42,335 nt of DNA from Candidatus Nanopelagicales bacterium (lineage in GTDB: Bacteria > Actinomycetota > Actinomycetes > S36-B12): contig JAFMHB010000011.1 of NCBI GenBank assembly GCA_017854795.1, forward strand, positions 1-42,335. Reading direction: 5' to 3'. The stretch's first letter is position 1, and each line of letters begins with the position of its first letter. The notes below the pieces were generated by a model that was not told the DNA's origin, ran no database searches, and saw only the letters and a program-made list of their open reading frames with translations. Shown piece by piece: positions 11,344 through 30,246 of the stretch. The translations under genes and the position numbers were made by a program.

Positions 11344-12150
11344 GTGAGCTGGCAATCCTGGGTTGTGCCAGCAGGTGTAAGCAACTGGGCAGCACGCCGC
11401 AGCAGATACCTCACTGTATTTGATGATTCCGGCGGTACGTGGGAAGCAGCGCAAGCTCAGAGTTCCGGGTATAACGCCGGTGAAATTCTCAGCAGGGTTA
11501 AGACAAGTACCCAAGCGGTATTGCGGGCCGAGGCTGCCTTTGAGCGAGATGGTGTTGAGTTCGCTGCACCCCAATACCGCTGGCCGGTTTTGGCCGGATT
11601 GCTTGAAGTGGCTACGCGTGACGGTGAACTGAAGGTGCTGGATTTTGGTGGCTCTCTGGGATCCCTGTACTGGCAACACCGCAAGTTTTTTACAGGGCTC
11701 AAGGTTTCCTGGGGTGTAGTAGAGCAGCCTGAATTCGTTGCTGTCGGGAAAGATTTGGATCAAAGTTCTATTGATTTTTTCTCCAGCGTCACCGAATCCT
11801 TGGAATCGGTCACTCCCAACGTGGTGCTCCTCTCCAGTGTTCTGCAGTATCTGCCGAATCCGGAGCAGACTTTGCGTGAGTTGCTCGCAACCCCTGCAGA
11901 CACCGTGATTCTCGACCGAACTCCCATCAGTACCGCTACTTCCAATGTCCCCTGCTTACAGGTAGTTCCGCAGCACATCTATGCCGGCAGTTACCCCGCT
12001 TGGATTTTCTCAGAAACCTGGTTGCGCAATCAATTGGCAGGGTGGGAGATCGTTGCGGAATTTGACGGAATTGAGCCGGCCGGTCAAACAAAAAATGGCA
12101 TCAACTTCAGTTGGGATGGCCTAATTGTCCGAAGGAAAGCCAATGACTGA
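11344..12150 (+). CDS. Putative SAM methyltransferase, TIGR04325-like
   Basis: This 268-residue protein has a Rossmann methyltransferase motif I, VLDFGGSLGSLY (residues 98-109), followed by YWQHRKFF and a late VVLLSSVLQYLPNP segment. That combination is characteristic of a putative methyltransferase family found in surface-polysaccharide loci. Expected role is O- or N-methylation of a sugar. Three closely spaced GTGs (11335, 11338, 11344) could start it. I prefer 11344, which follows AGGTGG at 11333-11338. Its 3' end overlaps the DUF6492 gene by 8 bases, so the two are probably translated together. Exact substrate unknown. Confidence 0.75.
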   Translation: MSWQSWVVPAGVSNWAARRSRYLTVFDDSGGTWEAAQAQSSGYNAGEILSRVKTSTQAVLRAEAAFERDGVEFAAPQYRWPVLAGLLEVATRDGELKVLDFGGSLGSLYWQHRKFFTGLKVSWGVVEQPEFVAVGKDLDQSSIDFFSSVTESLESVTPNVVLLSSVLQYLPNPEQTLRELLATPADTVILDRTPISTATSNVPCLQVVPQHIYAGSYPAWIFSETWLRNQLAGWEIVAEFDGIEPAGQTKNGINFSWDGLIVRRKAND

Positions 12151-13138
12151 GTTGGCTCTGCTGGTAAAGAGTTACCACGGTGACTTCGAATACGCCGAGC
12201 GCCTAATGCAGTCAATCAATGCTCACAACATTGATGCGTTGCCCGTCTACATTGTGGTTCCCGAGAAGGATCTTCAGCAATTCAAGGTTTTTGCAAGTGA
12301 CACCACAAAAATTTTGAGTGAAAATCTATTTGAGAACCACTTAGTTCACGGGGAAACTGCCGGCTTTCGACCTGGCTACATTAATCAAGAGATAATCAAA
12401 CTTGCGTTTTGGGAACTTGACTTGTGTGACAACTATTTCTGTGTCGATTCAGATGCGGAATTTATTCGCGACTTTGACCGCGCCGATTTCATGGCCCAAC
12501 CGGGCATTCCCTTCACATTCTTGACCGAAGACCGCGAGCTAGTTGTTGAACCCGACTACTACCAATCCACCTGGGTGAACCGCATGAAGTCTTTAGAAAA
12601 AATTCGTGAAAGCATTGGTTACACCGGACCGTGGCTCTTCACCGTGCACGGTCACGCGGTTTTTTCTGCAACAGTCTTGCAATCCTTCGTCACAGATTTT
12701 CTGGAACCACGCGGGTGGGATTACAAAGATGCACTCGCAATTTCACCTTATGAACCAACGTGGTACAACACCTGGTTGCTCCACACGGGTGTGATCGAGA
12801 TCATTCCTCGCGAACCTTTGGTCAAGACCTTTCATAATGCGCAACAACATTTGGAGTATCAGCTTCGTGGGATTCGCAAGGAAGATGCAGCACGTGGGTT
12901 CTTGGCAGTTGTGGTAAATTCAAATTACTCACGCGGACATGGCGTGATGGATGCGGAGAATTCACTGAAGGACACACTGGCTGCCTACATTCCCTTGCCG
13001 CAGTTGTTAAGAGCACTCGGTTTTAAATTGAGGCGTGACGTGTTTATTCGACGCACACCACTGCGCAAACTCCGATTCTGGTTAGGTGCACTCGCTCTGA
13101 AGATTCCCGGTGTGCGCCGACTAGTTCAGTCTGGCTGA
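12143..13138 (+). CDS. DUF6492 family protein, putative GT-A-like glycosyltransferase
   Basis: This 331-residue protein begins with ELALLVKSYHGDFEYAERL and carries a GT-A-like acidic motif, VDSDAEF (Asp102, Asp104), together with GYINQEIIKLAF, FTFLTEDREL and QQHLEYQLRGI. I assign DUF6492 from overall pattern. Biochemistry of the family is poorly known, but association with polysaccharide loci suggests sugar transfer. A clear paralogue lies at 17723-18670 with the acidic motif at the same residue number. The start at ATG 12143 follows GAAGGA and overlaps the methyltransferase by 8 bases. The 3' end overlaps the convergent gene by 13 bases. Confidence 0.8.
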   Translation: MTELALLVKSYHGDFEYAERLMQSINAHNIDALPVYIVVPEKDLQQFKVFASDTTKILSENLFENHLVHGETAGFRPGYINQEIIKLAFWELDLCDNYFCVDSDAEFIRDFDRADFMAQPGIPFTFLTEDRELVVEPDYYQSTWVNRMKSLEKIRESIGYTGPWLFTVHGHAVFSATVLQSFVTDFLEPRGWDYKDALAISPYEPTWYNTWLLHTGVIEIIPREPLVKTFHNAQQHLEYQLRGIRKEDAARGFLAVVVNSNYSRGHGVMDAENSLKDTLAAYIPLPQLLRALGFKLRRDVFIRRTPLRKLRFWLGALALKIPGVRRLVQSG

Positions 13139-14292
13139 CAGCACTTCGTTACAACTTTCCAAAAAATATTTTCTTGCACGTACCCCGCCATGGTGGCGTG
13201 ACCATTCTCCGCGATTCGCCGACGTAAATCGAAATCAGAAGCAATTGCTGAAATTTCGGCAACGGCCTGATCAACGCCCTCAAACTCGAGATAGTCCGAT
13301 TCTTTGATGAAGTACGGAAAACCACCTTCAACGCATTGAGCAACTAATGCCGTTCCTGCAGCCATGGTTTCGGCGTAGCGAAATACCGCCTGGCGAACCC
13401 AGATCCAATCCATAAATCCACGGGTGGGTCCTTGAAGTGTGGTGGTGAAGATAATGTCTGACTCCACCAAAACCCGCCAGTAATCATCATTGGAGGTCCC
13501 GGATTTATCCGAATTGATCGTGAGTGAGATTCCTTTGTCGGCAAGTTTTCCTTGAACTACCTGAAGAAATTCATCCCGCGGCGAGTACATGGAGCCGATG
13601 AATTGAATGACCAAGGGCGTGGTCGAATCACGACTGCTGGTGAAATGGGCTTTCGCCAATTCCAATTGGGTTAAACGCTTTTGGGAAACCGGCATGAACA
13701 GGGGTCCACATATTCGAGAGTGCGGGAAAATTTTGCCTGCAATATCTGTATGAGCAAAAGTAACCACACATCCGTGGAATGCGGTGAGAACCGCGGCCTG
13801 CCAGCGATGCCGACGATAAAAGGCGTCGGTGAGAACCACAATCGGAGTGATTCCTCTGCGATTCAGGAACCAGGCCACCCGAAATCCCTCAACCAGTGAA
13901 CGTGGCCAACTTTGTCCCGGAGTTCGCACGTCAAGTACTACGGTGTTTGCGCTACTTTTCTGTTGGTTGACTGCAAATTGAGGGTAGTAGGGCTGGTCAC
14001 GGTCAATAACTTGCTGGTAGACGTGGCTCGATCCAAAAAAGTCCTGCGCCGAGCCCAGAAGTTCTTCGAAATACACGTGGGTCCAGCCAATTATTCCCGA
14101 CTCGATCGCTACTAGTGGTTTTTGATTGCGGTTACGGCGGCGAGCACCCGCCCCAAGCACCCGCGCGGGTAGTAGAGCCACCCAATAGACCCAAAATAAG
14201 GGGATTACCAATCGTGGCAGTATTCGATCCCGCCACAGTCGATGTGTTTCGGGAGGGTTGAACCCGCGCGAATACAACTCAGCCTGCTCCAC
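13126..14292 (-). CDS. GT-B glycosyltransferase-like protein
   Basis: This 388-residue protein has a short hydrophobic stretch near the N-terminus (about residues 27-50, IPLFWVYWVALLPA), which may be a membrane anchor. Its C-terminal half resembles group 1 glycosyltransferases: LVIQFIGSMYSPRDEF, then FRYAETMAAGTALVAQ, the usual position of the donor-binding segment, and a final region like ISAIASDFDLRRRIAENGH. The classic EX7E motif is not clean, so the family is uncertain. It is monocistronic from a GTG at 14292 that shares a 17-base divergent promoter region with pseF. Sugar specificity is unknown. Confidence 0.65.
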   Translation of the reverse strand: MEQAELYSRGFNPPETHRLWRDRILPRLVIPLFWVYWVALLPARVLGAGARRRNRNQKPLVAIESGIIGWTHVYFEELLGSAQDFFGSSHVYQQVIDRDQPYYPQFAVNQQKSSANTVVLDVRTPGQSWPRSLVEGFRVAWFLNRRGITPIVVLTDAFYRRHRWQAAVLTAFHGCVVTFAHTDIAGKIFPHSRICGPLFMPVSQKRLTQLELAKAHFTSSRDSTTPLVIQFIGSMYSPRDEFLQVVQGKLADKGISLTINSDKSGTSNDDYWRVLVESDIIFTTTLQGPTRGFMDWIWVRQAVFRYAETMAAGTALVAQCVEGGFPYFIKESDYLEFEGVDQAVAEISAIASDFDLRRRIAENGHATMAGYVQENIFWKVVTKCCQPD

Positions 14293-14304
14293 CCGCCTAG
14301 GCTA
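14293..14304 (-). promoter_or_regulatory. Leaderless -10 element, minus side of a near-palindromic divergent promoter
   Basis: TAGCCT (14304-14299, minus) lies 6 bases before the GTG at 14292. It overlaps the plus-strand hexamer by 5 bases. Confidence 0.55.
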
Positions 14305-14309
14305 GTGGG
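14298..14309 (+). promoter_or_regulatory. Leaderless -10 element for pseF
   Basis: TAGGCT (14298-14303) lies 6 bases before the GTG at 14310. The whole intergenic space is 17 bases, too short for two leaders with ribosome sites. Confidence 0.55.
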
Positions 14310-15065
14310 GTGACCACCGCTCAACCCATTGCCATTATTCCGGCGCGCGCCGGATCCAAGAGGATCCCCGGGAAAAACTCTCGATCCATGCTCGGGATCC
14401 CCTTGATAACCCGGGCGATTCGGATCTGCCAAGAGTCAGAGATATTTGAATCGATTGTGGTCAACACCGACTCAGAGCAGATCGCTGAACTTGCCCGAGC
14501 AGCAGGTGCCCAGGTTCACAATCGGCCCATTGCCTTAGCCGACGACCATACCCCCTTACTCCCGGTGATCGCCGAGGCCACGGTGGACACGGTAGACACT
14601 AACCCGACCATGCCCATCTGTTGCTTTTATGCCACCGCAGTTACCGTCGACCCCGGAGAGCTCGTGAATAGTTGGCGGGTTTTTGGAGCGATGGTGGCTA
14701 ATCCCACCAGCGCCAATTCGTTCCTCACGGCAGTTGTGCGATACCCACATCCCATTCAGCGGGCATTGGAATTGGGTGCAAATGGAGACGTGACCATGCT
14801 TTCCCCGGAATACGCCCTCACGCGCACGCAAGATTTACCCGAACGCTGGCACGATGCCGGCGCGTTTATCTGGGGTAGTGCATTCGCTTGGTCACAAAGT
14901 GAACCCGTGTTAACCCGTGCCCATGGATTTCCGCTCGCACACTCCCAAATTGTCGATCTTGATACCGAAGAGGACTGGTTACGCGCCGAAACACTGCTTA
15001 CGGTGAGAGAAAACAAACTTTCACCAACGACCGATAGTCTTAACCAGCACGAAAAAAACACATAA
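14310..15065 (+). CDS. pseF: Pseudaminic acid cytidylyltransferase
   Basis: The enzyme activates pseudaminic acid (or a close nonulosonate) with CTP to give CMP-Pse. The 251-residue protein starts IAIIPARAGSKRIPGKN, the CMP-sugar synthetase nucleotide loop. It continues with VVNTDSEQIAELA and HDAGAFIWG, and ends near IVDLDTEEDW, all typical of PseF and the related NeuA group. Assignment to pseudaminate rather than sialate rests on the adjacent pseB and pseC. It heads a plus-strand operon, with pseB 9 bases downstream behind an AAGGAG ribosome site. There is no fused PseG hydrolase domain. Confidence 0.9.
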   Translation: MTTAQPIAIIPARAGSKRIPGKNSRSMLGIPLITRAIRICQESEIFESIVVNTDSEQIAELARAAGAQVHNRPIALADDHTPLLPVIAEATVDTVDTNPTMPICCFYATAVTVDPGELVNSWRVFGAMVANPTSANSFLTAVVRYPHPIQRALELGANGDVTMLSPEYALTRTQDLPERWHDAGAFIWGSAFAWSQSEPVLTRAHGFPLAHSQIVDLDTEEDWLRAETLLTVRENKLSPTTDSLNQHEKNT

Positions 15066-15074
15066 GGAGACTAA

Positions 15075-16049
15075 GTGTCAGTCATTGATGAATCCTCGAT
15101 TTTGATCACCGGGGGCACGGGTTCCTTTGGCAAGGCCTTCCTCCAAGAGGTTTTGACAGCTCACAATCCTCGCCGGGTTGCGATTCTTTCCCGTGATGAA
15201 CTCAAGCAGTCAGAAATGCGGGCACACTTCACGGATAAACGAATTCGCTGGTTTCTCGGGGACATCCGTGACAAAGATCGCTTGATTCGAGCTTTTCATG
15301 GTGTGGATTACGTTGTCCATGCGGCGGCCCTCAAACAAGTTGACACCGCTGAGTACAACCCGTTCGAGTACGTCCAAACAAATATTCTGGGCAGTCAAAA
15401 TGTGATTGACGCTGCCATAGATTCTGGCGTGAAAAAGGTCGTTGCTCTCTCAACGGATAAGGCGTCCTCGCCCATCAATCTTTATGGGGCAACAAAACTC
15501 ACCGCCGACAAACTATTTGTCGCAGCCAATAACTACAGCTACAGCTACAACACGGCCATGGCCGTTGTGCGCTACGGCAATGTCATGGGCAGTCGAGGAT
15601 CAGTGATTCCGTTCTTCCAAAAATTAATCGCCGAGAACAAACCACTTCCCATTACCGATCCCAACATGACTCGGTTCTGGATCACGCTGCCCCAGGCTGT
15701 TCAGTTTGTTATTGATTCATTTGACTCAATGCACGGTGGGGAACTGTACGTCCCACGAATACCCAGCATGCGAATCATGGATCTGGTCGAAGCTCTCAAG
15801 CCGGGTGCCGAAACTCATGTTGTTGGTATTCGCCCCGGTGAGAAACTCCACGAGGAAATGATTGCCTCTGACGACAGCTACCGGACACTGCGCCAAGCAG
15901 ATCGCTACGTGGTGCAACCAACCGTTAAGGAGTGGTGGTTCAAAGATTCTGAGGGTGAAGCGGTTGCAGAGGGTTTCTCATACTCCTCCGACACTAATGA
16001 CCAATGGTTAACGATCCCGGAATTGCAAAACTGGATTGCTAAAGGCTAA
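15075..16049 (+). CDS. pseB: UDP-N-acetylglucosamine 4,6-dehydratase (inverting)
   Basis: First enzyme of pseudaminate synthesis: it dehydrates and C5-epimerises UDP-GlcNAc to a 4-keto-6-deoxy-altro sugar. The 324-residue protein has GGTGSFGK (about residues 13-20), AALKQVDTAEYNP, STDKASSPINLYGATK (Tyr137, Lys141) and YGNVMGSRGSVIP. The STDKA plus AALKQV set is diagnostic of the PseB/FlaA1 group. The GTG start follows AAGGAG. It abuts pseC with no intergenic base, which supports co-expression. Length and all visible catalytic positions are normal. Confidence 0.95.
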   Translation: MSVIDESSILITGGTGSFGKAFLQEVLTAHNPRRVAILSRDELKQSEMRAHFTDKRIRWFLGDIRDKDRLIRAFHGVDYVVHAAALKQVDTAEYNPFEYVQTNILGSQNVIDAAIDSGVKKVVALSTDKASSPINLYGATKLTADKLFVAANNYSYSYNTAMAVVRYGNVMGSRGSVIPFFQKLIAENKPLPITDPNMTRFWITLPQAVQFVIDSFDSMHGGELYVPRIPSMRIMDLVEALKPGAETHVVGIRPGEKLHEEMIASDDSYRTLRQADRYVVQPTVKEWWFKDSEGEAVAEGFSYSSDTNDQWLTIPELQNWIAKG

Positions 16050-17153
16050 GTGAGCCAATCCATGATTCCTTATGGGCGTCAGCAGGTCGATGCCGCTGAC
16101 ATTGCCGCCGTTGAAAAAGTTCTCAAAAGCGACTGGTTGACAACCGGTCCTGTTATCACCGAATTCGAAATGGCTCTCGCCGACTATGTTGGAGCGAAAT
16201 ACGCAATCACATTTTCATCGGCCACGGCGGCCCTGCATGCTGCTTGCGTTGTTGCAGGTTTAGGACCTGGTGATCTGGTACACACGAGTCCTCTAACATT
16301 TATCGCAAGTGCAAATTGTGCGCGCTACGTTGGCGCCACACCTGCATTGATTGACATTGATCCATCCACATTCAATATTGACACCGACCAAATCACCGAA
16401 AACATTCAGGCCGTTATTCCGGTGCACTATGCGGGACTGCCAGTGGAACTGGGCGCAATACCTGCTCGCCCTCGGGTGATCATCGAAGATGCATCCCACG
16501 CTCTCGGTGCACGGAGTACAACTGAAAGGGTTGGAGCCACCACGCACAGTGATATGTGCGTCTTTTCATTCCACCCGGTCAAGCCAATCACCACAGGCGA
16601 AGGTGGTGCAGTCACCACTAATAATGCGGATTACGCGCAAGCGCTTAAGGAATTCCGCTCCCATGGAATCAAAGCGAATACAGATCCACTGTCCTGGGAA
16701 TACAACGCGACTACCCTCGGTTACAACTACCGATTAACCGACATCCAAGCCGCTCTAGGTCTTAGCCAGTTGAGGAAACTTGACCGATTCATTGCCGAAC
16801 GTAACGCGATTGCTGAGCGTTATCGGGAGAAACTCTCGGAACTACCACTTGAATTACCCCCAGCCGCGCCTGCAGGCGCACTGCACGGTTACCACCTTTT
16901 TGCCATTCGGGTTCCCCAGCGACGCGAAGTATTTGCCGAGTTGCGCAAACGGGGAATAGGTGTTCAAGTGCACTATGTACCCGTTCACCACCACGGCGTG
17001 TCTGCTGACATCGAAATCCCACTAGGTGGCTACCCGCACGCCGATTCCGTCTATAACGGACTGATCAGCATTCCTACTTTCCCTGGACTCACCGAGTCGG
17101 AACAGGACATTGTGATTGCAACATTGACAGACGTTCTGGAACTTCATGGTTGA
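16050..17153 (+). CDS. pseC: UDP-4-amino-4,6-dideoxy-N-acetyl-altrosamine transaminase
   Basis: This PLP enzyme aminates the PseB product at C4. The 367-residue DegT-family protein carries the Schiff-base lysine in FSFHPVKPITTGEGG (Lys178), unlike the His-bearing RfbH at the window start. It also shows IPVHYAGLPVELG, IIEDASHALGA, and a C-terminal HHHGVSADIEIPLGG region. The IPYGRQ start and the neighbouring pseB, pseF and acetyltransferase support PseC specifically. The GTG start directly follows the pseB stop and the 3' end overlaps the next gene by 8 bases. Confidence 0.93.
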   Translation: MSQSMIPYGRQQVDAADIAAVEKVLKSDWLTTGPVITEFEMALADYVGAKYAITFSSATAALHAACVVAGLGPGDLVHTSPLTFIASANCARYVGATPALIDIDPSTFNIDTDQITENIQAVIPVHYAGLPVELGAIPARPRVIIEDASHALGARSTTERVGATTHSDMCVFSFHPVKPITTGEGGAVTTNNADYAQALKEFRSHGIKANTDPLSWEYNATTLGYNYRLTDIQAALGLSQLRKLDRFIAERNAIAERYREKLSELPLELPPAAPAGALHGYHLFAIRVPQRREVFAELRKRGIGVQVHYVPVHHHGVSADIEIPLGGYPHADSVYNGLISIPTFPGLTESEQDIVIATLTDVLELHG

Positions 17154-17730
17154 GCATGACCTTCAGTGGGATTCGGGCTATCGCTTCTTCCCCGAACTCA
17201 ACGCCACAAGTGCCGATAAACGCTACCAACTCCGTCCCCTTCACTGGAATGATCGCGATGCAATCCGAGTATGGCGCAATGCACAGATTGACGTCCTGCG
17301 ACAACAAAATCCATTATCGGCGAATGAGCAGGATAGTTACTTTTCGAGCATAGTTCTGCCTCAACTCGCCGAGAAACTCCCTGAGCAAATTCTCTTCGCT
17401 TTCCTCGAGGATTCCCAGCTTGTTGGTTATGGCGGCTTTGTGCACATTGTGTGGGCTGATCGCCGCGCGGAAGTGTCATTCTTAACCGACATAGATCGCT
17501 CGGATCAAAAGATATTTTCCCAAGATTGGGTGGAGTACCTGAAGTTACTTGTACAGCTTGCCCAAAAAATTGGCTTTCATAAACTCACTACCGAGACATA
17601 CAGCATTAGGCCGGAATTAATTAGAATTCTCGAGAATTTTGGTTTCACTCGAGAAGGGATCCTGCGTGATCACCATCTCATCAATGGTGTACCAGTTGAC
17701 AGCTTCGCCCATGCGTATCTGATCAACTAG
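17146..17730 (+). CDS. pseH: GNAT acetyltransferase, probable PseH
   Basis: This is a GCN5-related N-acetyltransferase of the RimJ/RimL type, 194 residues. The order of features is YQLRPLHWNDRDAIRVWRN, a VGYGGFVHIVW strand, an acyl-CoA region, and GFTREGILRDHHLINGVPVD near the C-terminus. In the Pse pathway PseH acetylates the 4-amino group made by PseC, and the gene overlaps pseC by 8 bases, so this assignment is natural. A second GNAT gene at 20886 sits beside pseI, and either could be the true PseH. It ends with an 8-base overlap with the convergent DUF6492 gene. Confidence 0.8.
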   Translation: MVEHDLQWDSGYRFFPELNATSADKRYQLRPLHWNDRDAIRVWRNAQIDVLRQQNPLSANEQDSYFSSIVLPQLAEKLPEQILFAFLEDSQLVGYGGFVHIVWADRRAEVSFLTDIDRSDQKIFSQDWVEYLKLLVQLAQKIGFHKLTTETYSIRPELIRILENFGFTREGILRDHHLINGVPVDSFAHAYLIN

Positions 17731-20885: not shown

Positions 20886-21350
20886 GTGAGGATTCGTCCC
20901 GCAACTTCCGCCGACTCTGTCGACGTTTTACGGTGGCGCAATGATCAAACGGCGCGGGAACAATCTCGCACTACGGAAGTCATCACACAAGACGTACATG
21001 ACGTCTGGTTTGAATCAGTCATCAATGACACCTACAGGTATCTTTTCATTGCTGAACTCGAAAACGCTGGGTCCTTTGGCCAAGTCAGGTTTGATCTCCT
21101 TGCAGGTGAGTCAAACGTGTTTGAAGTTTCAATTTCGATTTCCCCCGAGTATCGGGGGCAAAATCTCGCGATTCCCACGCTGTTACAGGCCGAGAAGGTA
21201 TTCACTGACGACCATTCACCCAGTCAATTGCGGGCTTTTGTCAGGTTGGGCAACACCCTCTCCCAACGCATATTCACCGCAGCGGGCTATAGCATTGAGT
21301 CCAAGGTAAGTGACTCCGGCAATTGGTGGTTTAAGGACATAGATGATTGA
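20886..21350 (+). CDS. GNAT acetyltransferase beside pseI
   Basis: This 154-residue protein has GNAT features: VRIRPATSADSVDVLRWRN at the N-terminus, a SFGQVRFDL strand, an acetyl-CoA-binding region ISPEYRGQNLA (which fits the R/QXXGXG/A loop), and AGYSIESK near the end. I start it at the GTG at 20886 because the family N-terminus begins there; the open frame continues upstream inside the preceding gene without homology. It overlaps pseI by 8 bases. It may be the true PseH, or it may add an acyl group elsewhere on the nonulosonate. It is only distantly similar to the GNAT at 17146. Confidence 0.78.
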   Translation: MRIRPATSADSVDVLRWRNDQTAREQSRTTEVITQDVHDVWFESVINDTYRYLFIAELENAGSFGQVRFDLLAGESNVFEVSISISPEYRGQNLAIPTLLQAEKVFTDDHSPSQLRAFVRLGNTLSQRIFTAAGYSIESKVSDSGNWWFKDIDD

Positions 21351-22395
21351 TTCAATTTCCATAGCCGGGAAAAAAATAGGTCCAACATCATCTTGCTATG
21401 TCATTGCTGAAGTGTCAGCCAATCACAAACAAGACATTAATATTGCCAAGGAAACTGTTCGTGCTGCCGCCGAGGCAGGCGCCGATGCCGTCAAGTTCCA
21501 GACTTACACTCCGGACACTCTCACATTCAACTCGGACAGTGAGATTTTTCGGATTGATCATGGAACAGCTTGGGACGGTCGGACCCTGTACTCGATTTAT
21601 TCCGAGGGGTATATGCCGTGGGAGTGGCACGCAGAACTCTTCGAGCTCGCAAATTCACTGGGCCTGGCTGCGTTCTCCTCACCCTTTGATTCAACCGCCG
21701 TTGACTACTTGGCGGATCTTGATGTCCCAGCATTCAAAATCGCATCTTTTGAGATTGTCGACATCCCTCTGATTCAACATGTTGCTCGACAGGGGAAACC
21801 AGTACTCATTTCAACGGGAATTGCCCGCAAAGAAGACATCGAGGCCGCAGTAGCAGCGTGCCGTGAAGTAGGTAACTCCGAAATCATTGTTTTGAAATGC
21901 ACATCCGCCTACCCAGCTCCCGCTAACGAATTGAATTTGCTCACTATCCCCGCGATCACTGAAACGTTCGGGGTTATTGCCGGTTACTCCGATCACACGA
22001 TGACCCCAACTGCAGCCATCGCTGCTGTCACACTCGGGGCGCGAGTCATTGAGCGCCACATCACGCTCGATAGACTCACTGGTGGTCTGGATGCCGGCTT
22101 CAGCACGACAGCCGCGGAGTTTAAGGAACTTGTCCAGCAGATTCGCGAAACAGAAGAAGCTCTCGGTGTTGTCACCTTCCAACTGAGTGCAGTGAGTGAA
22201 AATAGTCGGAGATTCTCTCGATCCCTTTTCGTCACAATGGACGTCAAGGCTGGCGACTTGGTTACCGGTGACAACCTGCGTTCAATTCGCCCAAATAATG
22301 GGCTTCACCCCAAACTATTACCTAACTTAATCGGTCGCACTTTTTCATGCGATGTCACCGCAGGGACGCCAATGTCAGCCGATTTCGTTAGCTAA
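21343..22395 (+). CDS. pseI: Pseudaminic acid synthase
   Basis: PseI condenses 2,4-diacetamido-2,4,6-trideoxy-altrose with phosphoenolpyruvate to give pseudaminic acid. The 350-residue protein has the NeuB-family TIM barrel (about 1-270) with VIAEVSANHKQD, DAVKFQTYTPDTL, FSSPFDSTAVDYL, FKIASFEI and GYSDHTMTP, followed by an antifreeze-like SAF domain (about 295-350). The GYSDHTMT and WDGRTLYSIY segments match PseI more than sialate synthase, in agreement with pseB and pseC nearby. The ATG start follows AAGGA. Its direct substrate requires PseG, which is absent from the window. Confidence 0.93.
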   Translation: MIDSISIAGKKIGPTSSCYVIAEVSANHKQDINIAKETVRAAAEAGADAVKFQTYTPDTLTFNSDSEIFRIDHGTAWDGRTLYSIYSEGYMPWEWHAELFELANSLGLAAFSSPFDSTAVDYLADLDVPAFKIASFEIVDIPLIQHVARQGKPVLISTGIARKEDIEAAVAACREVGNSEIIVLKCTSAYPAPANELNLLTIPAITETFGVIAGYSDHTMTPTAAIAAVTLGARVIERHITLDRLTGGLDAGFSTTAAEFKELVQQIRETEEALGVVTFQLSAVSENSRRFSRSLFVTMDVKAGDLVTGDNLRSIRPNNGLHPKLLPNLIGRTFSCDVTAGTPMSADFVS

Positions 22396-24177
22396 CCTGC
22401 CTGTCAATCGATCAATTTTGATTATTTGATCAGCGATTTCCAATTTTTCTTGATCCTGCTCGAGTGAGTCACCGCGGACTATAGCGAGTGGGTTCCACAC
22501 GGTTGAATTATCAAAATCATTGATTCGTTCGATACATTCCTCAATCCAATCCTGTGATTGTTCTTTCATGGAATCTGATTGGGTTCTACGAGCCTTATCC
22601 CTCATTGATAATTTTCGTGAAATTTTTTCTCTCCAGGCAACGGGTATCACTTTCCGTATCGCGGAAAGTGACTGCTTAGAGTCCCCCACATCTACATATT
22701 CAGGTTGGTGTTGCCACGTTCTGTGGGTAATCGCACGAGCCAGTGTTATTGAGTACCATCGCCAAGCTTTGATCGCTATTTCAGTTGATCTTGGAGTGGT
22801 AATCGCTTGATTGATCGTGGTGCTGTAACCATCCGCATCGAATCTCTCAACTTCAAGGCCAAGTGATGCTGGATAGGCATTGAGACGAGGCGGGTCGTAG
22901 TGCACAACTGGAATACCGAGGGCAAGGAATTCAAGACCGGCACTCGAAGCGTGGTTTATTCCAATGCTGGCAACACGAGCCACGTCATACAAACCTATTC
23001 CGTCATCTGGGGAGTTAATTGAAACGTTAGGTGTTCGCTGCTCAAGTAACTCCTCAATACGGTCTAGATCCGGTGATCTAAGTAGTTCACGTTTATTTGG
23101 TGCAAGCCGCGGATGTAACCTGAAAACAAATTCAATATCAGGCGAATTGCGGGCCGCCAGTAAGGATTGTTCAATGAATTCAGTGACCGCAGAGACTTTT
23201 TCAATCGGCACTCGCTCAAATTCAGCGCCCACCAATGCAGACGATCGTGTTTCATCTGGGCTACCGATCAACACAACCGCAATAGGCTTGCTGCCCGATG
23301 TTCCCAGTTGATCATGAATTTCTTGAGTCGATCTGAATGTCGGTGCAGTGGAATAGACCCACGGGTCCCTTCCCATTATTAGATGCCCCAAATTTCTGGC
23401 AACAATTTCTACTTCGAGCGGAGTTAATGGTGTTTCAAGTGACTCGATGAGTCTCGCCGAATCGACAGCGGTTTGACTTGACTGAATACTTCGGAAGAGA
23501 GCGATGGTTGCATACCGATCAGGTATAAACGCACCCGTACTCATACCAACATATTGGATCGCAGGACTCGAAAGGGCGAGTTCTGTGAAAACTCTATTTG
23601 TTGGGTACAAAGGGTTGTAAACAAAACAGTGGGTGGGTTTTATCTCCTTGAAAATATGAGGCAGGGCATGGTAAGCGAATAACGAACTCGTCAGATCACT
23701 GAGGTATTCATTCCATGAGAGGTCAGTTGAGGTGATATCAGGAACTTTGTGGTGCAGCATCGACAAATATGTTGCATGACGATTAATGGGAAAGGGGTGG
23801 TTTCCAAATTCCTGCCAATTTTCACGCGTTACATATCCGACCTCAGTCACAACCTGACTTCTCTTTTCTTCAGTCAAGTAATCATCGATCCACACGGTCG
23901 AATATTTAGCTACGCTGTGAAATGACGCTTCACTGCTCTTGCACTCCTTACAGATCGATTGTTTCTGCGAATTCGGTGACATGACCTGGAGTCCGTTTGA
24001 TTGCATAGTGGGGCACAATGATTCAAATAGTCCACGACATCTTATGACCACCACTTCAGCCCCTTGACTTACTAGGCCATTCGCAAAATCGTGTTCCAGC
24101 TGACTGGTTTCCCACAGACCTGCGTTGGGAGAAAACCAGAGAATGCGCCACTCTGATACGGGCAATCCAAGAGCCAC
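22375..24177 (-). CDS. GT-B fold capsule-type glycosyltransferase, putative
   Basis: The 600-residue protein starts WRILWFSPNAGLW. Its middle contains a SGSKPIAVVLIGSPDE strand and VFRLHPRLAPNKREL, then HASSAGLEFLALGIPVVHYDPP. That His-Pro plus SAGLEFLALGIPV pattern is typical of capsule synthesis and CDP-glycerol-like GT-B transferases. A charged C-terminal tail of about 100 residues follows. An N-terminal SICKECKSS motif is an oddity of unknown role. The gene is convergent with pseI (21-base overlap) and coupled to the upstream GT2 by a TAGTG overlap. It is a candidate for the nonulosonate transferase, which is inference from position. Specificity is unknown. Confidence 0.65.
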   Translation of the reverse strand: MALGLPVSEWRILWFSPNAGLWETSQLEHDFANGLVSQGAEVVVIRCRGLFESLCPTMQSNGLQVMSPNSQKQSICKECKSSEASFHSVAKYSTVWIDDYLTEEKRSQVVTEVGYVTRENWQEFGNHPFPINRHATYLSMLHHKVPDITSTDLSWNEYLSDLTSSLFAYHALPHIFKEIKPTHCFVYNPLYPTNRVFTELALSSPAIQYVGMSTGAFIPDRYATIALFRSIQSSQTAVDSARLIESLETPLTPLEVEIVARNLGHLIMGRDPWVYSTAPTFRSTQEIHDQLGTSGSKPIAVVLIGSPDETRSSALVGAEFERVPIEKVSAVTEFIEQSLLAARNSPDIEFVFRLHPRLAPNKRELLRSPDLDRIEELLEQRTPNVSINSPDDGIGLYDVARVASIGINHASSAGLEFLALGIPVVHYDPPRLNAYPASLGLEVERFDADGYSTTINQAITTPRSTEIAIKAWRWYSITLARAITHRTWQHQPEYVDVGDSKQSLSAIRKVIPVAWREKISRKLSMRDKARRTQSDSMKEQSQDWIEECIERINDFDNSTVWNPLAIVRGDSLEQDQEKLEIADQIIKIDRLTGRLANEIG

Positions 24178-25106
24178 TAGGAGGACCTTCCCAACAGTTG
24201 AGAAAGGGCAGAAGTGATCCGTGTGGTGATTTTATCTGGTTGCACTCGGGCACTCTGCAGCGTCTGAGAAATCACTTGACGCGCAGCAACGGACTCCACA
24301 ACATCGACTACTTGGATGGGTAAATCAATCCTCTCGGCCGTTACTTCATGTGATGTGGCCGATTCCGAGTGGGTTCCACTGCCTTCTTGTCCAATGTTTT
24401 CAACGAGTGATCGGCCTGGGTAGAGGGTGAGTTTGTTGGCAAGAAATGCCGATGCGTACCAGCGGATTGCCCACGAGTCGATTTTTCCCGCGGCTTGGTT
24501 CCTGAGCATCTGTCGGTAGGGGAAAGCTCCATTGAAATCAAACTCTGCTCGATCCGGTGACCTATCAAGTTCCTTCAAGAGTTTTTGGGAGTCGGATTCA
24601 AAAATTTTCCAACCTCGACGCCAGGTGGCCCAGCCCCAGCAGTCGGCACCGCGCAGGAAAACAGTTTGAGGAAGAACCTGAGGAACCGAGTACATGAAAC
24701 CATGAATACTGATTACTTCTTCATCGTTGACATAAAGCTCAAGGGCCTGATTCATGTACTCCAAAAAGTCGGGGGAAACCACCAAATCGTCTTCCATGAC
24801 AATTACGCTTTCGTGGTCTTCCAGAGTTTGCGTGACACCGGAGATAACCGAGGCCGCTAGGCCAATGTTGTGATCACGTTCTATAACGCGAACCGAGGCA
24901 AACAAGCTTGAGCCTTGGATCTCACGAGCGATTTCCTTGACCTGCTCCACAGCCTCCTGGTCAATCGCTGATTTGGCGCCATCGCAATAGATACTCAAAG
25001 CAGTTCGATCGGCGCCAGGATTAGCAGCAAGTGAGTCAAGGGCCCTGCGCAGATGATCAGGGCGCCGGTAAGCGAAAAGTACTACCGGGGCATGATCGCG
25101 TGACAC
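24177..25106 (-). CDS. GT-A glycosyltransferase (GT2/GT13-like)
   Basis: The 309-residue protein starts APVVLFAYRRPDHLRRALDSL. It carries a metal motif VMEDDLVVSPDFL (Glu105-Asp107) and the aromatic block DCWGWATWRRGW. The EDD and WGWATW pair defines a glycosyltransferase group resembling GlcNAc-transferase I. A paralogue with both motifs lies at 33212-34126. The start at GTG 25106 is chosen because TATGCT lies 6 bases upstream; the longer reading from 25124 would run over the promoter of the divergent epimerase gene. It overlaps the next minus gene by one base (TAGTG). Confidence 0.85.
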   Translation of the reverse strand: MSRDHAPVVLFAYRRPDHLRRALDSLAANPGADRTALSIYCDGAKSAIDQEAVEQVKEIAREIQGSSLFASVRVIERDHNIGLAASVISGVTQTLEDHESVIVMEDDLVVSPDFLEYMNQALELYVNDEEVISIHGFMYSVPQVLPQTVFLRGADCWGWATWRRGWKIFESDSQKLLKELDRSPDRAEFDFNGAFPYRQMLRNQAAGKIDSWAIRWYASAFLANKLTLYPGRSLVENIGQEGSGTHSESATSHEVTAERIDLPIQVVDVVESVAARQVISQTLQSARVQPDKITTRITSALSQLLGRSS

Positions 25107-25118
25107 CGCATGAGCATA
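25107..25118 (-). promoter_or_regulatory. Leaderless -10 element for the 24177-25106 glycosyltransferase
   Basis: TATGCT (25118-25113, minus) lies 6 bases before the GTG at 25106. Confidence 0.5.
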
Positions 25119-25126
25119 GAACACGT

Positions 25127-25139
25127 TACGCTGAACCCC
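25127..25139 (+). promoter_or_regulatory. Leaderless -10 element for the SDR gene
   Basis: TACGCT (25127-25132) lies 7 bases before the ATG at 25140. With the minus element at 25113-25118 it makes a 33-base divergent promoter region. Confidence 0.5.
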
Positions 25140-26156
25140 ATGGTCCCAAGTCAGAACGCCCAGTTGTCTGCGGCGTTTTCGGGATCTAACCCCTTAATCA
25201 CAGGGGGTTTAGGCTTCATCGGTTCCCATGTTGCTCGACGACTGGTCGATTACGGGGCCCACGTCACCGTGATCGACAATCTTGTCCCCGAATACGGGGG
25301 TAACTGGTTCAACGTTGCCGACATCAAAGATCGCATTAACGTCCATATTGGCGATATTCGCGATCAGTCCCTGATCGACCAACTTGTCCCTGGCGCTGAC
25401 TTCATTTTCAACCTTGCTGGGCAAACTAGCCACCTTGACTCCATGACCGACCCGCACACGGATTTAGCTATCAATGCAGATGCCCAGCTTTCGATACTGG
25501 AGGCGTGTCGGGGGCAGAATCCGGCAACTCGAGTTGTGTTCGCGAGTACCCGCCAACTCTATGGAAAGCCAGATTTCCTTCCGGTAACCGAAGAGCATCC
25601 CACCCGTCCAGTTGATGTCAACGGGATCAACAAACTTGCTGGCGAGTGGTATCACTTGCTATACCACGACGTTTACGAAATACCAGCATGTGCACTCCGT
25701 CTCACTAATACCTACGGTCCAGGAATGCGCGTCAAAGATGCTCGCCAAACATTCCTCGGTATCTGGATAAAACAAGCACTCAGTGGTGAAACCATCAAAG
25801 TCTTTGGGGACGGACAGCAGCTGCGTGATTTTAATTATGTAGATGATTGCGTCAACGCACTCTTGATTGCCGCAATATCACCCAATGCTGAAGGAAAAGT
25901 GTTCAACCTTGGTAGCAGAGAAGTGATCTCACTGGAAAAACTTGCGCAACTGATCTGCGAGATTGAACCCGGGGCGAGATATGAACTTGTTCCTTTTCCC
26001 GAGGATCGGAAAAAGATAGACATCGGTGACTACTACGCTGATACAACTTTGATTCATAAAGAACTCGGTTGGGAACCAAGCGTGTCATTAACCGAAGGAA
26101 TCACGAAGACTCTGAATTTTTATCGGGAAAACTCGTCGGAATACTGGGGCAAGTGA
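25140..26156 (+). CDS. NAD-dependent epimerase/dehydratase, catalytic Tyr replaced by Asn
   Basis: This extended SDR of 338 residues has an NAD-binding loop GGLGFIGSH, the NLAGQTSHLDSM region, ASTRQLYGKP, LTNTYGPGMRVKDARQTF and LRDFNYVDDCVNA. The position of the usual catalytic YXXXK reads NGINK (Asn161, Lys165), so the canonical Tyr is missing. The pattern DVNGINKLAGEWYH appears to be a coherent subfamily feature rather than a random mutation. It may need another base, or do a non-standard reaction. It leads an operon with a DegT aminotransferase and a GT-A protein, suggesting it prepares or epimerises a sugar nucleotide before amination. The start at 25140 rests on the promoter; 25110 is an alternative. 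Confidence 0.85.
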   Translation: MVPSQNAQLSAAFSGSNPLITGGLGFIGSHVARRLVDYGAHVTVIDNLVPEYGGNWFNVADIKDRINVHIGDIRDQSLIDQLVPGADFIFNLAGQTSHLDSMTDPHTDLAINADAQLSILEACRGQNPATRVVFASTRQLYGKPDFLPVTEEHPTRPVDVNGINKLAGEWYHLLYHDVYEIPACALRLTNTYGPGMRVKDARQTFLGIWIKQALSGETIKVFGDGQQLRDFNYVDDCVNALLIAAISPNAEGKVFNLGSREVISLEKLAQLICEIEPGARYELVPFPEDRKKIDIGDYYADTTLIHKELGWEPSVSLTEGITKTLNFYRENSSEYWGK

Positions 26157-26166
26157 GGGAAGCGCT

Positions 26167-27276
26167 GTGATATCCATGAATGGCTTCAGCCAAGAGCCCG
26201 CTGAAATTCTGGTAGCGGAGCAAGAGGCTGCCACTTCGGTCTTTGCATCCCACTATTACGTACTTGGGACTCAGGTCACTGAATTTGAATCAGAGTGGGC
26301 CGATTACTGCGGTTCCCAACACGCCGTCGGTGTTGCTAATGGTCTTGATGCACTCGAGATCATTCTTCGCACGCAGGGGATCGGGGCCGGTGATCAAGTG
26401 ATCACAACTCCCATGACGGCCGTGGCCACTATTCTGGGGATCATTCGAGCGGGAGCCACACCTGTATTGGCTGACATTGACCCGGAAACAGCATTACTAG
26501 ATCCTGCAAGTGTTGAACGTTGCATCAATGAAAAAACTCGCGCAATTATTCTGGTCCACCTCTATGGACAAGTCCGAAACATGGCTGCATGGCAGAAGCT
26601 TTGCGATTCACATGGGATTGCCCTCATAGAGGACTGCGCCCAAAGCCATGGTGCGCAAGAGAACGGTCTTGGTTGCGGGTCCTTCGGTGTTGCAGGAGCT
26701 TTTAGTTTCTACCCAACGAAAAACCTTGGTGCAATCGGCGATGCCGGCGCTCTAGTGACAAATAATTCGAAAATTGATCAGCAGGCTCGAATGCTTCGAA
26801 ACTACGGCCAAGTCAACCGATACGAACACCATGAAATCGGAATGAATAGTCGTCTTGACGAATTACAGGCAGCCATATTGCGTGTTCGACTCAATTGGTT
26901 GGATGAGTTCACGGCACGCAGAAAGCAGGTGGCACTCCGGTACCGCACAGGAATCACAAACCAGTGGGTGAAATTACTTGCTGCACCGCTGAATCCTGAA
27001 CAACATGTGTATCACCTATTTGTGTTGACAACACCCTTTCGAGATCAAATGCAACAACACTTAGTGGAATCCGGTGTTGAAACACTCATTCACTACCCCA
27101 TCTCTGCTGATCAACAGGTGGCGTTAAAAGGAATCGCAACAGATCCCCACGGCTTACCTTTCGCGCAGGAACATGCCGAGATGTGTTTTTCTATTCCATG
27201 TCACCCGCAACTCACAGATAGAGATCTCGACCATGTGATTGCATCCGTGAACTCGTTTGTCCCGCGGGAGTCTTGA
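26167..27276 (+). CDS. DegT/DnrJ/EryC1/StrS sugar aminotransferase
   Basis: This PLP enzyme makes an amino sugar nucleotide from a keto sugar. The 369-residue protein has the Schiff-base lysine in FSFYPTKNLGAIGDAG (Lys185), the ALIEDCAQSHGA block that binds the cofactor, GMNSRLDELQAAIL, and a YHLFVL segment. FYPTKNLGA with LGDAGA-like continuation resembles the FdtB/QdtB group (3-amino-3,6-dideoxyhexose formation), but the regiochemistry cannot be read from sequence. It follows the SDR gene by 10 bases, with an AGGGAA ribosome site. A start at the ATG at 26176 is equally possible. Confidence 0.9.
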   Translation: MISMNGFSQEPAEILVAEQEAATSVFASHYYVLGTQVTEFESEWADYCGSQHAVGVANGLDALEIILRTQGIGAGDQVITTPMTAVATILGIIRAGATPVLADIDPETALLDPASVERCINEKTRAIILVHLYGQVRNMAAWQKLCDSHGIALIEDCAQSHGAQENGLGCGSFGVAGAFSFYPTKNLGAIGDAGALVTNNSKIDQQARMLRNYGQVNRYEHHEIGMNSRLDELQAAILRVRLNWLDEFTARRKQVALRYRTGITNQWVKLLAAPLNPEQHVYHLFVLTTPFRDQMQQHLVESGVETLIHYPISADQQVALKGIATDPHGLPFAQEHAEMCFSIPCHPQLTDRDLDHVIASVNSFVPRES

Positions 27277-30194: not shown

Positions 30195-30206
30195 CTTGGA
30201 ACCCTA
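30195..30206 (-). promoter_or_regulatory. Leaderless -10 element for the 29328-30194 gene
   Basis: TAGGGT (30206-30201, minus) lies 6 bases before the GTG at 30194. No ribosome site is present. Confidence 0.55.
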
Positions 30207-30234
30207 TCGCGGGTAAGGGTATTCAACCATTTAC

Positions 30235-30246
30235 TAGGCTTTAGAC
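30235..30246 (+). promoter_or_regulatory. Leaderless -10 element for the 30247 GT2 gene
   Basis: TAGGCT (30235-30240) lies 6 bases before the ATG at 30247, with the same hexamer and spacing as the pseF element. Confidence 0.55.

Follow-up and report, generated by a model that had tools for sequence, protein, structure and literature searches.

Within the stretch of 42,335 nucleotides from a Candidatus Nanopelagicales bacterium analysed here, referred to as the window, the pseF operon and a glycosyltransferase gene diverge from GTG start codons that lie only 17 bases apart. So short a spacer raises the question of how the two genes are transcribed, and in particular of whether expression of one comes at the expense of the other or whether both can draw on a single promoter. 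The genes surrounding the spacer are the following:

13126..14292, minus strand: glycosyltransferase of 388 aa, a single gene facing away (PF13524, a weak match of 27 bits at a cut-off of 25)
14310..15065, plus strand: pseF, pseudaminic acid cytidylyltransferase of 251 aa (TIGR03584, 205.8 bits at a cut-off of 205.7; PF02348)
15075..16049, plus strand: pseB, UDP-GlcNAc 4,6-dehydratase, second gene of the pse operon (TIGR03589, 488.7 bits at a cut-off of 407.75)
16050..17153, plus strand: pseC, aminotransferase (TIGR03588, at its cut-off)
17146..17730, plus strand: GNAT acetyltransferase (PF13420), PseH-like below cut-off (TIGR03585, 25.4 bits against 93.1)
21343-22395: pseI, further along the pse region

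Judged by sequence, the pseF and glycosyltransferase reading frames that flank the spacer are real, and their starts align with those of their relatives. At its 3' end, the glycosyltransferase gene overlaps a convergent reading frame (12125-13138, plus strand) by 13 bp, tail-to-tail. Beside the pse genes, the window also harbors a second pair (25110-27276) encoding a 4,6-dehydratase-like protein and a PseC-like aminotransferase, below the equivalog cut-offs.

The spacer, with sequence CCGCCTAGGCTAGTGGG, occupies positions 14293-14309 and separates the minus-strand GTG at 14292-14290 from the plus-strand GTG at 14310-14312, in exact agreement with the 17-base gap between divergent GTG codons reported in the original prediction. 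The same applies to its description of TAGGCT and TAGCCT as opposed hexamers overlapping by five bases (14299-14303), each located six bases from its own GTG. The elements of the spacer can be summarized as follows:

14293..14309, no strand assigned: intergenic spacer with a predicted shared bidirectional promoter; its length and/or core are kept in relatives
14298..14304, no strand assigned: shared core TANNNTA (TAGGCTA), providing -12T, -11A and -7T in both directions, 14299 and 14303 being common to the two; kept in 6/6 complete orthologous junctions
14298..14303, plus strand: -10 element TAGGCT for pseF, matching the genome-wide TANNNT-N6-RTG signature
14299..14304, minus strand: -10 element TAGCCT for the glycosyltransferase gene, matching the same signature
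14295..14302, no strand assigned: 8-bp perfect palindrome GCCTAGGC at the spacer centre, absent from L008 and L217, which are distant relatives
14310, plus strand: predicted leaderless transcription start at the first base of the pseF GTG, placed by -10 spacing
14292, minus strand: predicted leaderless transcription start at the first base of the glycosyltransferase GTG, placed by -10 spacing, 18 bp from 14310

Two bases of the core, A14299 and T14303, serve both strands, as -11A and -7T in one direction and as -7T and -11A in the other. The spacer hence presents the reciprocal -7T/-11A pairing in overlapping -10 elements that defines the 18-bp class of bidirectional promoters. Because both starts are G, the base at -18 is C on each strand, instead of the favoured T. 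Neither 17-base leader contains a Shine-Dalgarno-like word (GGAG, AGGA or GAGG) before its start codon; a weak AGGCGG directly abuts the minus-strand GTG, with zero spacer.

The six-base spacing observed on both sides of the spacer is a recurrent feature of this genome. The assembly (G000; 2.36 Mb, 60 contigs) was sampled in stretches totalling 766,851 bases, including the window, and genes were called with a simple codon-usage script whose starts are to be read as candidates. TANNNT ending six bases before the start was detected in this sample at 69/714 ATG and 63/663 GTG start candidates, compared with only 1/425 candidate TTG, 4/2,864 in-frame internal ATG and 1/3,249 in-frame internal GTG codons. 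Pooled, these figures amount to 132 of 1,377 candidate ATG/GTG starts versus 5 of 6,113 internal ATG/GTG codons. In a smaller sample, the spacing between TANNNT and start codon peaked at N=6, with a lesser peak at 7, and both pseF and the glycosyltransferase gene present this commonest spacing. Genes with a TANNNT-N6 start make up 132 of 670, a proportion near the 19.2% average leaderless usage given for the Actinobacteria (PMC3160421). With TANNNT located roughly 10-12 bp before both starts, a position enriched at starts across the genome, and no Shine-Dalgarno word preceding them, both messages arising from the spacer are probably leaderless. It is this (probable) leaderless nature of both genes that fixes the 17-bp gap.

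The short spacer could, however, be incidental, with the promoters of one or both genes lying further upstream, within the opposing gene, and giving transcripts with ordinary leaders. Promoters within neighbouring genes are common, and in one related locus (L006) the glycosyltransferase gene has its own separate -10 element. This possibility appears very unlikely, given the lack of Shine-Dalgarno-like words before either GTG and the presence of the exact N=6 signature at both starts, also observed on both sides in L006. Moreover, a scan of positions 13900-14700 for sigma-70 consensus -35/-10 promoters yielded 0 promoters, against 0.3 expected.

The reading of the spacer itself as a promoter is well supported by sequence and comparison. 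We consider it likely that its one symmetric -10 element (TANNNTA, 14298-14304) acts as a bidirectional promoter recognised by the housekeeping sigma factor and drives two leaderless genes, resulting in modest expression of both and not in an either-or choice. RNA polymerase carrying the housekeeping sigma factor would bind this single element in either orientation, using A14299 (-11) and T14303 (-7) in the pseF direction and their complements in the glycosyltransferase direction. The two transcripts would begin at or beside the first base of their GTG codons, 18 bp from one another, and would be translated without a leader. The start sites, the sigma factor and the expression levels in this scheme are those that we infer for the locus. 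Since no -35 element is evident in the sigma-70 scan, as is also the case for Mycobacterium tuberculosis promoters (PMC3898074), promoter activity is probably low to moderate. Modest output of both genes from the common site would be likely, together with a degree of competition when activity is high, and one-sided repression would be expected only if an activator drove one of the genes hard.

The comparative analysis of this junction encompassed relatives with pseF, present in 6/85 family genomes, and with the glycosyltransferase, present in 6/166 genomes of the order, together with five named loci on public contigs. Three of the named loci (L032, L033 and L034) coincide with L005, L006 and L008, and another (L030), on the contig of L214, ends inside the promoter, with 11/11 bases alike. 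Complete junctions were available for the window, L031, L005, L008, L217 and L006, and in the first four of these six the gap is 17. The L031 spacer is identical to that of the window and the L005 spacer matches it at 16 of 17 positions. L008, which belongs to another genus and shows 46-52% protein identity, retains the gap of 17 (GCCGTTAGGGTAGCGAC) and a TAGGGTA core, although both spacers have diverged. In L217, from a third genus, the gap is 19 and the core TAGAGTA lies six bases from pseF and eight from the glycosyltransferase gene. L006 belongs to the same genus as the window and presents a gap of 39, in which each gene has its own separate -10 element at six bases from the GTG. TANNNTA precedes pseF in all six complete junctions and is also common to the glycosyltransferase gene in five of them, but the separate elements of L006 and the eight-base spacing of L217 indicate that the shared arrangement is not obligatory. 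In genome G054 (L007), pseF was found without a divergent glycosyltransferase gene. Two of the public contigs carrying close relatives of this Nanopelagicales-like locus, L031 and L032, are labelled as Arsukibacterium sp. and Bifidobacterium breve, and these MAG labels look wrong or mixed.

The same alignment bears on a further reading of the spacer, in which a dimeric protein regulating both genes would bind the palindrome as its operator and the likeness to a -10 element would be secondary. The perfect 8-bp palindrome at the spacer centre is also present in the closely related L005 and L031 junctions and in L030, a truncated locus, but is lost in L008 and L217, where TANNNTA and the six-base spacing to pseF persist. 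Together with the recurrence of the geometry at unrelated gene pairs that differ in their central letters, described below, this makes an operator role distinctly unlikely.

A shared promoter imposes strict limits on the distance between two leaderless genes. According to a letter check, opposed genes with TANNNT-N6-RTG starts can share fixed -10 letters solely at gaps of 17 or 22, and four fixed bases suffice for sharing at either gap. The 17-bp spacer is therefore the most compact form of shared promoter. With regard to the 18-, 23- and 10-bp classes of bidirectional promoter, the 10-bp class would collide with the opposite start codon in leaderless pairs with six-base spacing. In the 766,851-base sample, a census of divergent gaps of 8-30 bases between ORFs of at least 80 aa identified TANNNT-N6 on both sides at gap 17 (two pairs, the window spacer and dapD/dapE) and at gap 22 (one pair), and at no other gap. 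The second gap-17 pair is located as follows:

L002:1501-1523 (G000:C31:48586-48608): divergent dapD/dapE genes, again with a shared -10 element in a 17-bp gap, CACGGCACTACCGTAGTGGCGTG

Leaderless-type starts were present on both sides in 25 and on one side in 44 of the 100 divergent pairs called. Across the whole genome, the exact gap-17 pattern occurs three times, at two real divergent pairs and at a third site (L003) with a gene on one side alone. The pattern read backwards occurs six times, and raw pattern counts in a single genome hence show no excess. Outside the 17-bp form, the window contains two further divergent pairs with leaderless-type starts on both sides (25107-25139 and 30195-30246), with gaps of 33 and 52 and separate -10 elements; the start at 25106 sits 18 bases inside the longest ORF, 24177-25124. 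At L067:8728-8749 (G000:C1), a 22-bp gap separates two leaderless-type starts whose -10 elements share TA alone, which would place the pair in the 23-bp start-site class.

Evidence for recurrence comes instead from the Nanopelagicales-like family, in which the gap-17 geometry was identified at 133 sites in 65/82 genomes. Shifting the spacers on each side by -3, -1 and +3 returned 3, 8 and 19 sites, respectively. A reversed-pattern control returned 145 sites, not fewer than the 133 observed, but we judge this control to be poor, since forward patterns rich in TA bring stop codons with them where the DNA is coding. The spacer-shifted controls, two of which keep codon phase, were used for that reason, a weighting that is arguable. 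Family and phylum totals are sums of hand-entered columns. Real divergent ORFs (at least 80 aa, or 40 aa when running off the stretch) were present on both sides at 32 of 59 checked sites, on one side at 22 and on neither at 5, the 59 comprising 30 supplied loci and 29 hand-picked among the matches listed and not being a random draw. Shifted control sites presented ORFs on both sides at 0/30, on one side at 6 and on neither at 24.

The 32 two-sided sites correspond to eight pair types. These include dapD/dapE (12), biotin ligase/carboxyltransferase (10), ABC-2 permease/glycerophosphotransferase-like (4), PhyH/short protein (2) and four single types, among them pseF/glycosyltransferase and MsrA/Cys-Met PLP enzyme. 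The pattern thus recurs at unrelated gene pairs, and its central letters differ among them. The dapD/dapE junction presents a TACCGTA core in 30/30 family loci, 23 of them having gap 17 and 7 having gap 18, and its flanking spacer columns vary, as counted on sites that were located by the word TACCGTA, present in all 30 loci. The ten biotin ligase/acyl-CoA carboxyltransferase loci with the 17-bp geometry (L133-L136, L138-L140 and L203-L205) all belong to genus g7. A raw count of the gap-22 pattern gave 152 sites, and no claim is made for it beyond the one pair in the genome sample.

We also considered whether the geometry is general in the phylum, which the counts did not bear out, with 204 sites versus 177 shifted-control sites in 149 genomes. 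Twelve other genomes of the class contain 12 gap-17 sites against 2 in the shifted control, and the 136 phylum genomes outside the class contain 189 against 174, barely above the control. Outside the family, the 17-bp form of dapD/dapE is not kept, and of nine loci examined there from the phylum-wide gap-17 scan, three had ORFs on both sides.

These results bear directly on the question of exclusivity. The contention of the original prediction that two polymerases cannot bind at once agrees with the geometry of the spacer, and the authors of a study on Escherichia coli bidirectional promoters state such steric exclusion (PMC12825309). The prediction further proposed that the overlap may make expression of the two genes mutually exclusive or subject to stochastic switching, each cell then expressing either the pseF operon or the glycosyltransferase, and this step is unsupported. 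Strong activation of one side does repress the partner in E. coli, but in that study repression arises only under such activation: at basal level, none of the five bidirectional promoters assayed was strong enough for polymerases to compete, and interference reduced cell-to-cell noise, with the Fano factor decreasing from 0.16 to 0.07 at acrA/acrR (PMC12825309). By analogy with these promoters, shared use would be expected here. The same geometry is, furthermore, kept at pairs that would be wanted together, such as biotin ligase/carboxyltransferase and dapD/dapE, two enzymes of one pathway. Polymerase occupancy lasts seconds, far below protein lifetimes, and exclusion at the DNA level would therefore create no cell states without feedback. 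Neither bistable feedback nor invertible DNA was seen in the gap or in the family assignment of either gene. Taken together, we regard an exclusive or switched mode of expression as highly improbable, and the layout points to shared expression of both genes.

The bidirectional promoter proposed here is closely related to known systems. Bidirectional promoters are defined by opposite-strand start sites 7-25 bp apart (PMC10268837), and an 18-bp separation with reciprocal -7/-11 positions is the commonest bacterial arrangement (PMC10268837; PMC12825309). Like the 18-bp promoters described by Warman, Forrest, Wade, Grainger and co-workers, the spacer combines opposed -10 elements, coinciding -7T/-11A positions, divergent and often linked genes and, here by prediction, an 18-bp start-site distance. 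It departs from them in that both transcripts are predicted to be leaderless, so that the promoter takes up the entire gap, with both start codons locked to its position, and in the GC-tolerant TANNNT that takes the place of TATAAT; the start sites are also predicted. As in actinobacterial leaderless genes (PMC3160421; PMC3898074), the first T of TANNNT lies 12 bases before ATG or GTG, about one gene in five shows this feature and no -35 element is needed, but here one element is common to two such genes. The M. tuberculosis prpD/Rv1129c pair, in which both genes are leaderless and both are upregulated in starvation, was considered as a precedent and rejected, since its start sites lie 120 bp apart and no -10 element is shared (PMC3898074). 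A literature search covering few subscription papers, with the 2021 original on bidirectional promoters outside it, returned no description of bacterial bidirectional promoters combined with leaderless genes. The parts are known, and their combination, with two leaderless genes sharing a promoter across a fixed 17-bp gap and kept at several pairs in one family, is a variant for which we found no description.

The encounter of these two known features, bidirectional promoters and leaderless genes, gives a testable rule, which would predict from sequence only, and to the base, which divergent pairs share one polymerase site. For the Nanopelagicales-like family, we tentatively suggest that the 17-bp shared -10 element may be maintained to hard-wire two linked leaderless genes to one polymerase site, dapD/dapE being an ancient instance of this. 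The distance between start codons would then be set by promoter symmetry, and translation starts and promoter would evolve as a unit. In conserved pairs such as dapD/dapE, it would be possible to examine whether a common promoter coordinates the output of two enzymes, and whether the noise reduction through interference seen in E. coli extends to other bacteria.
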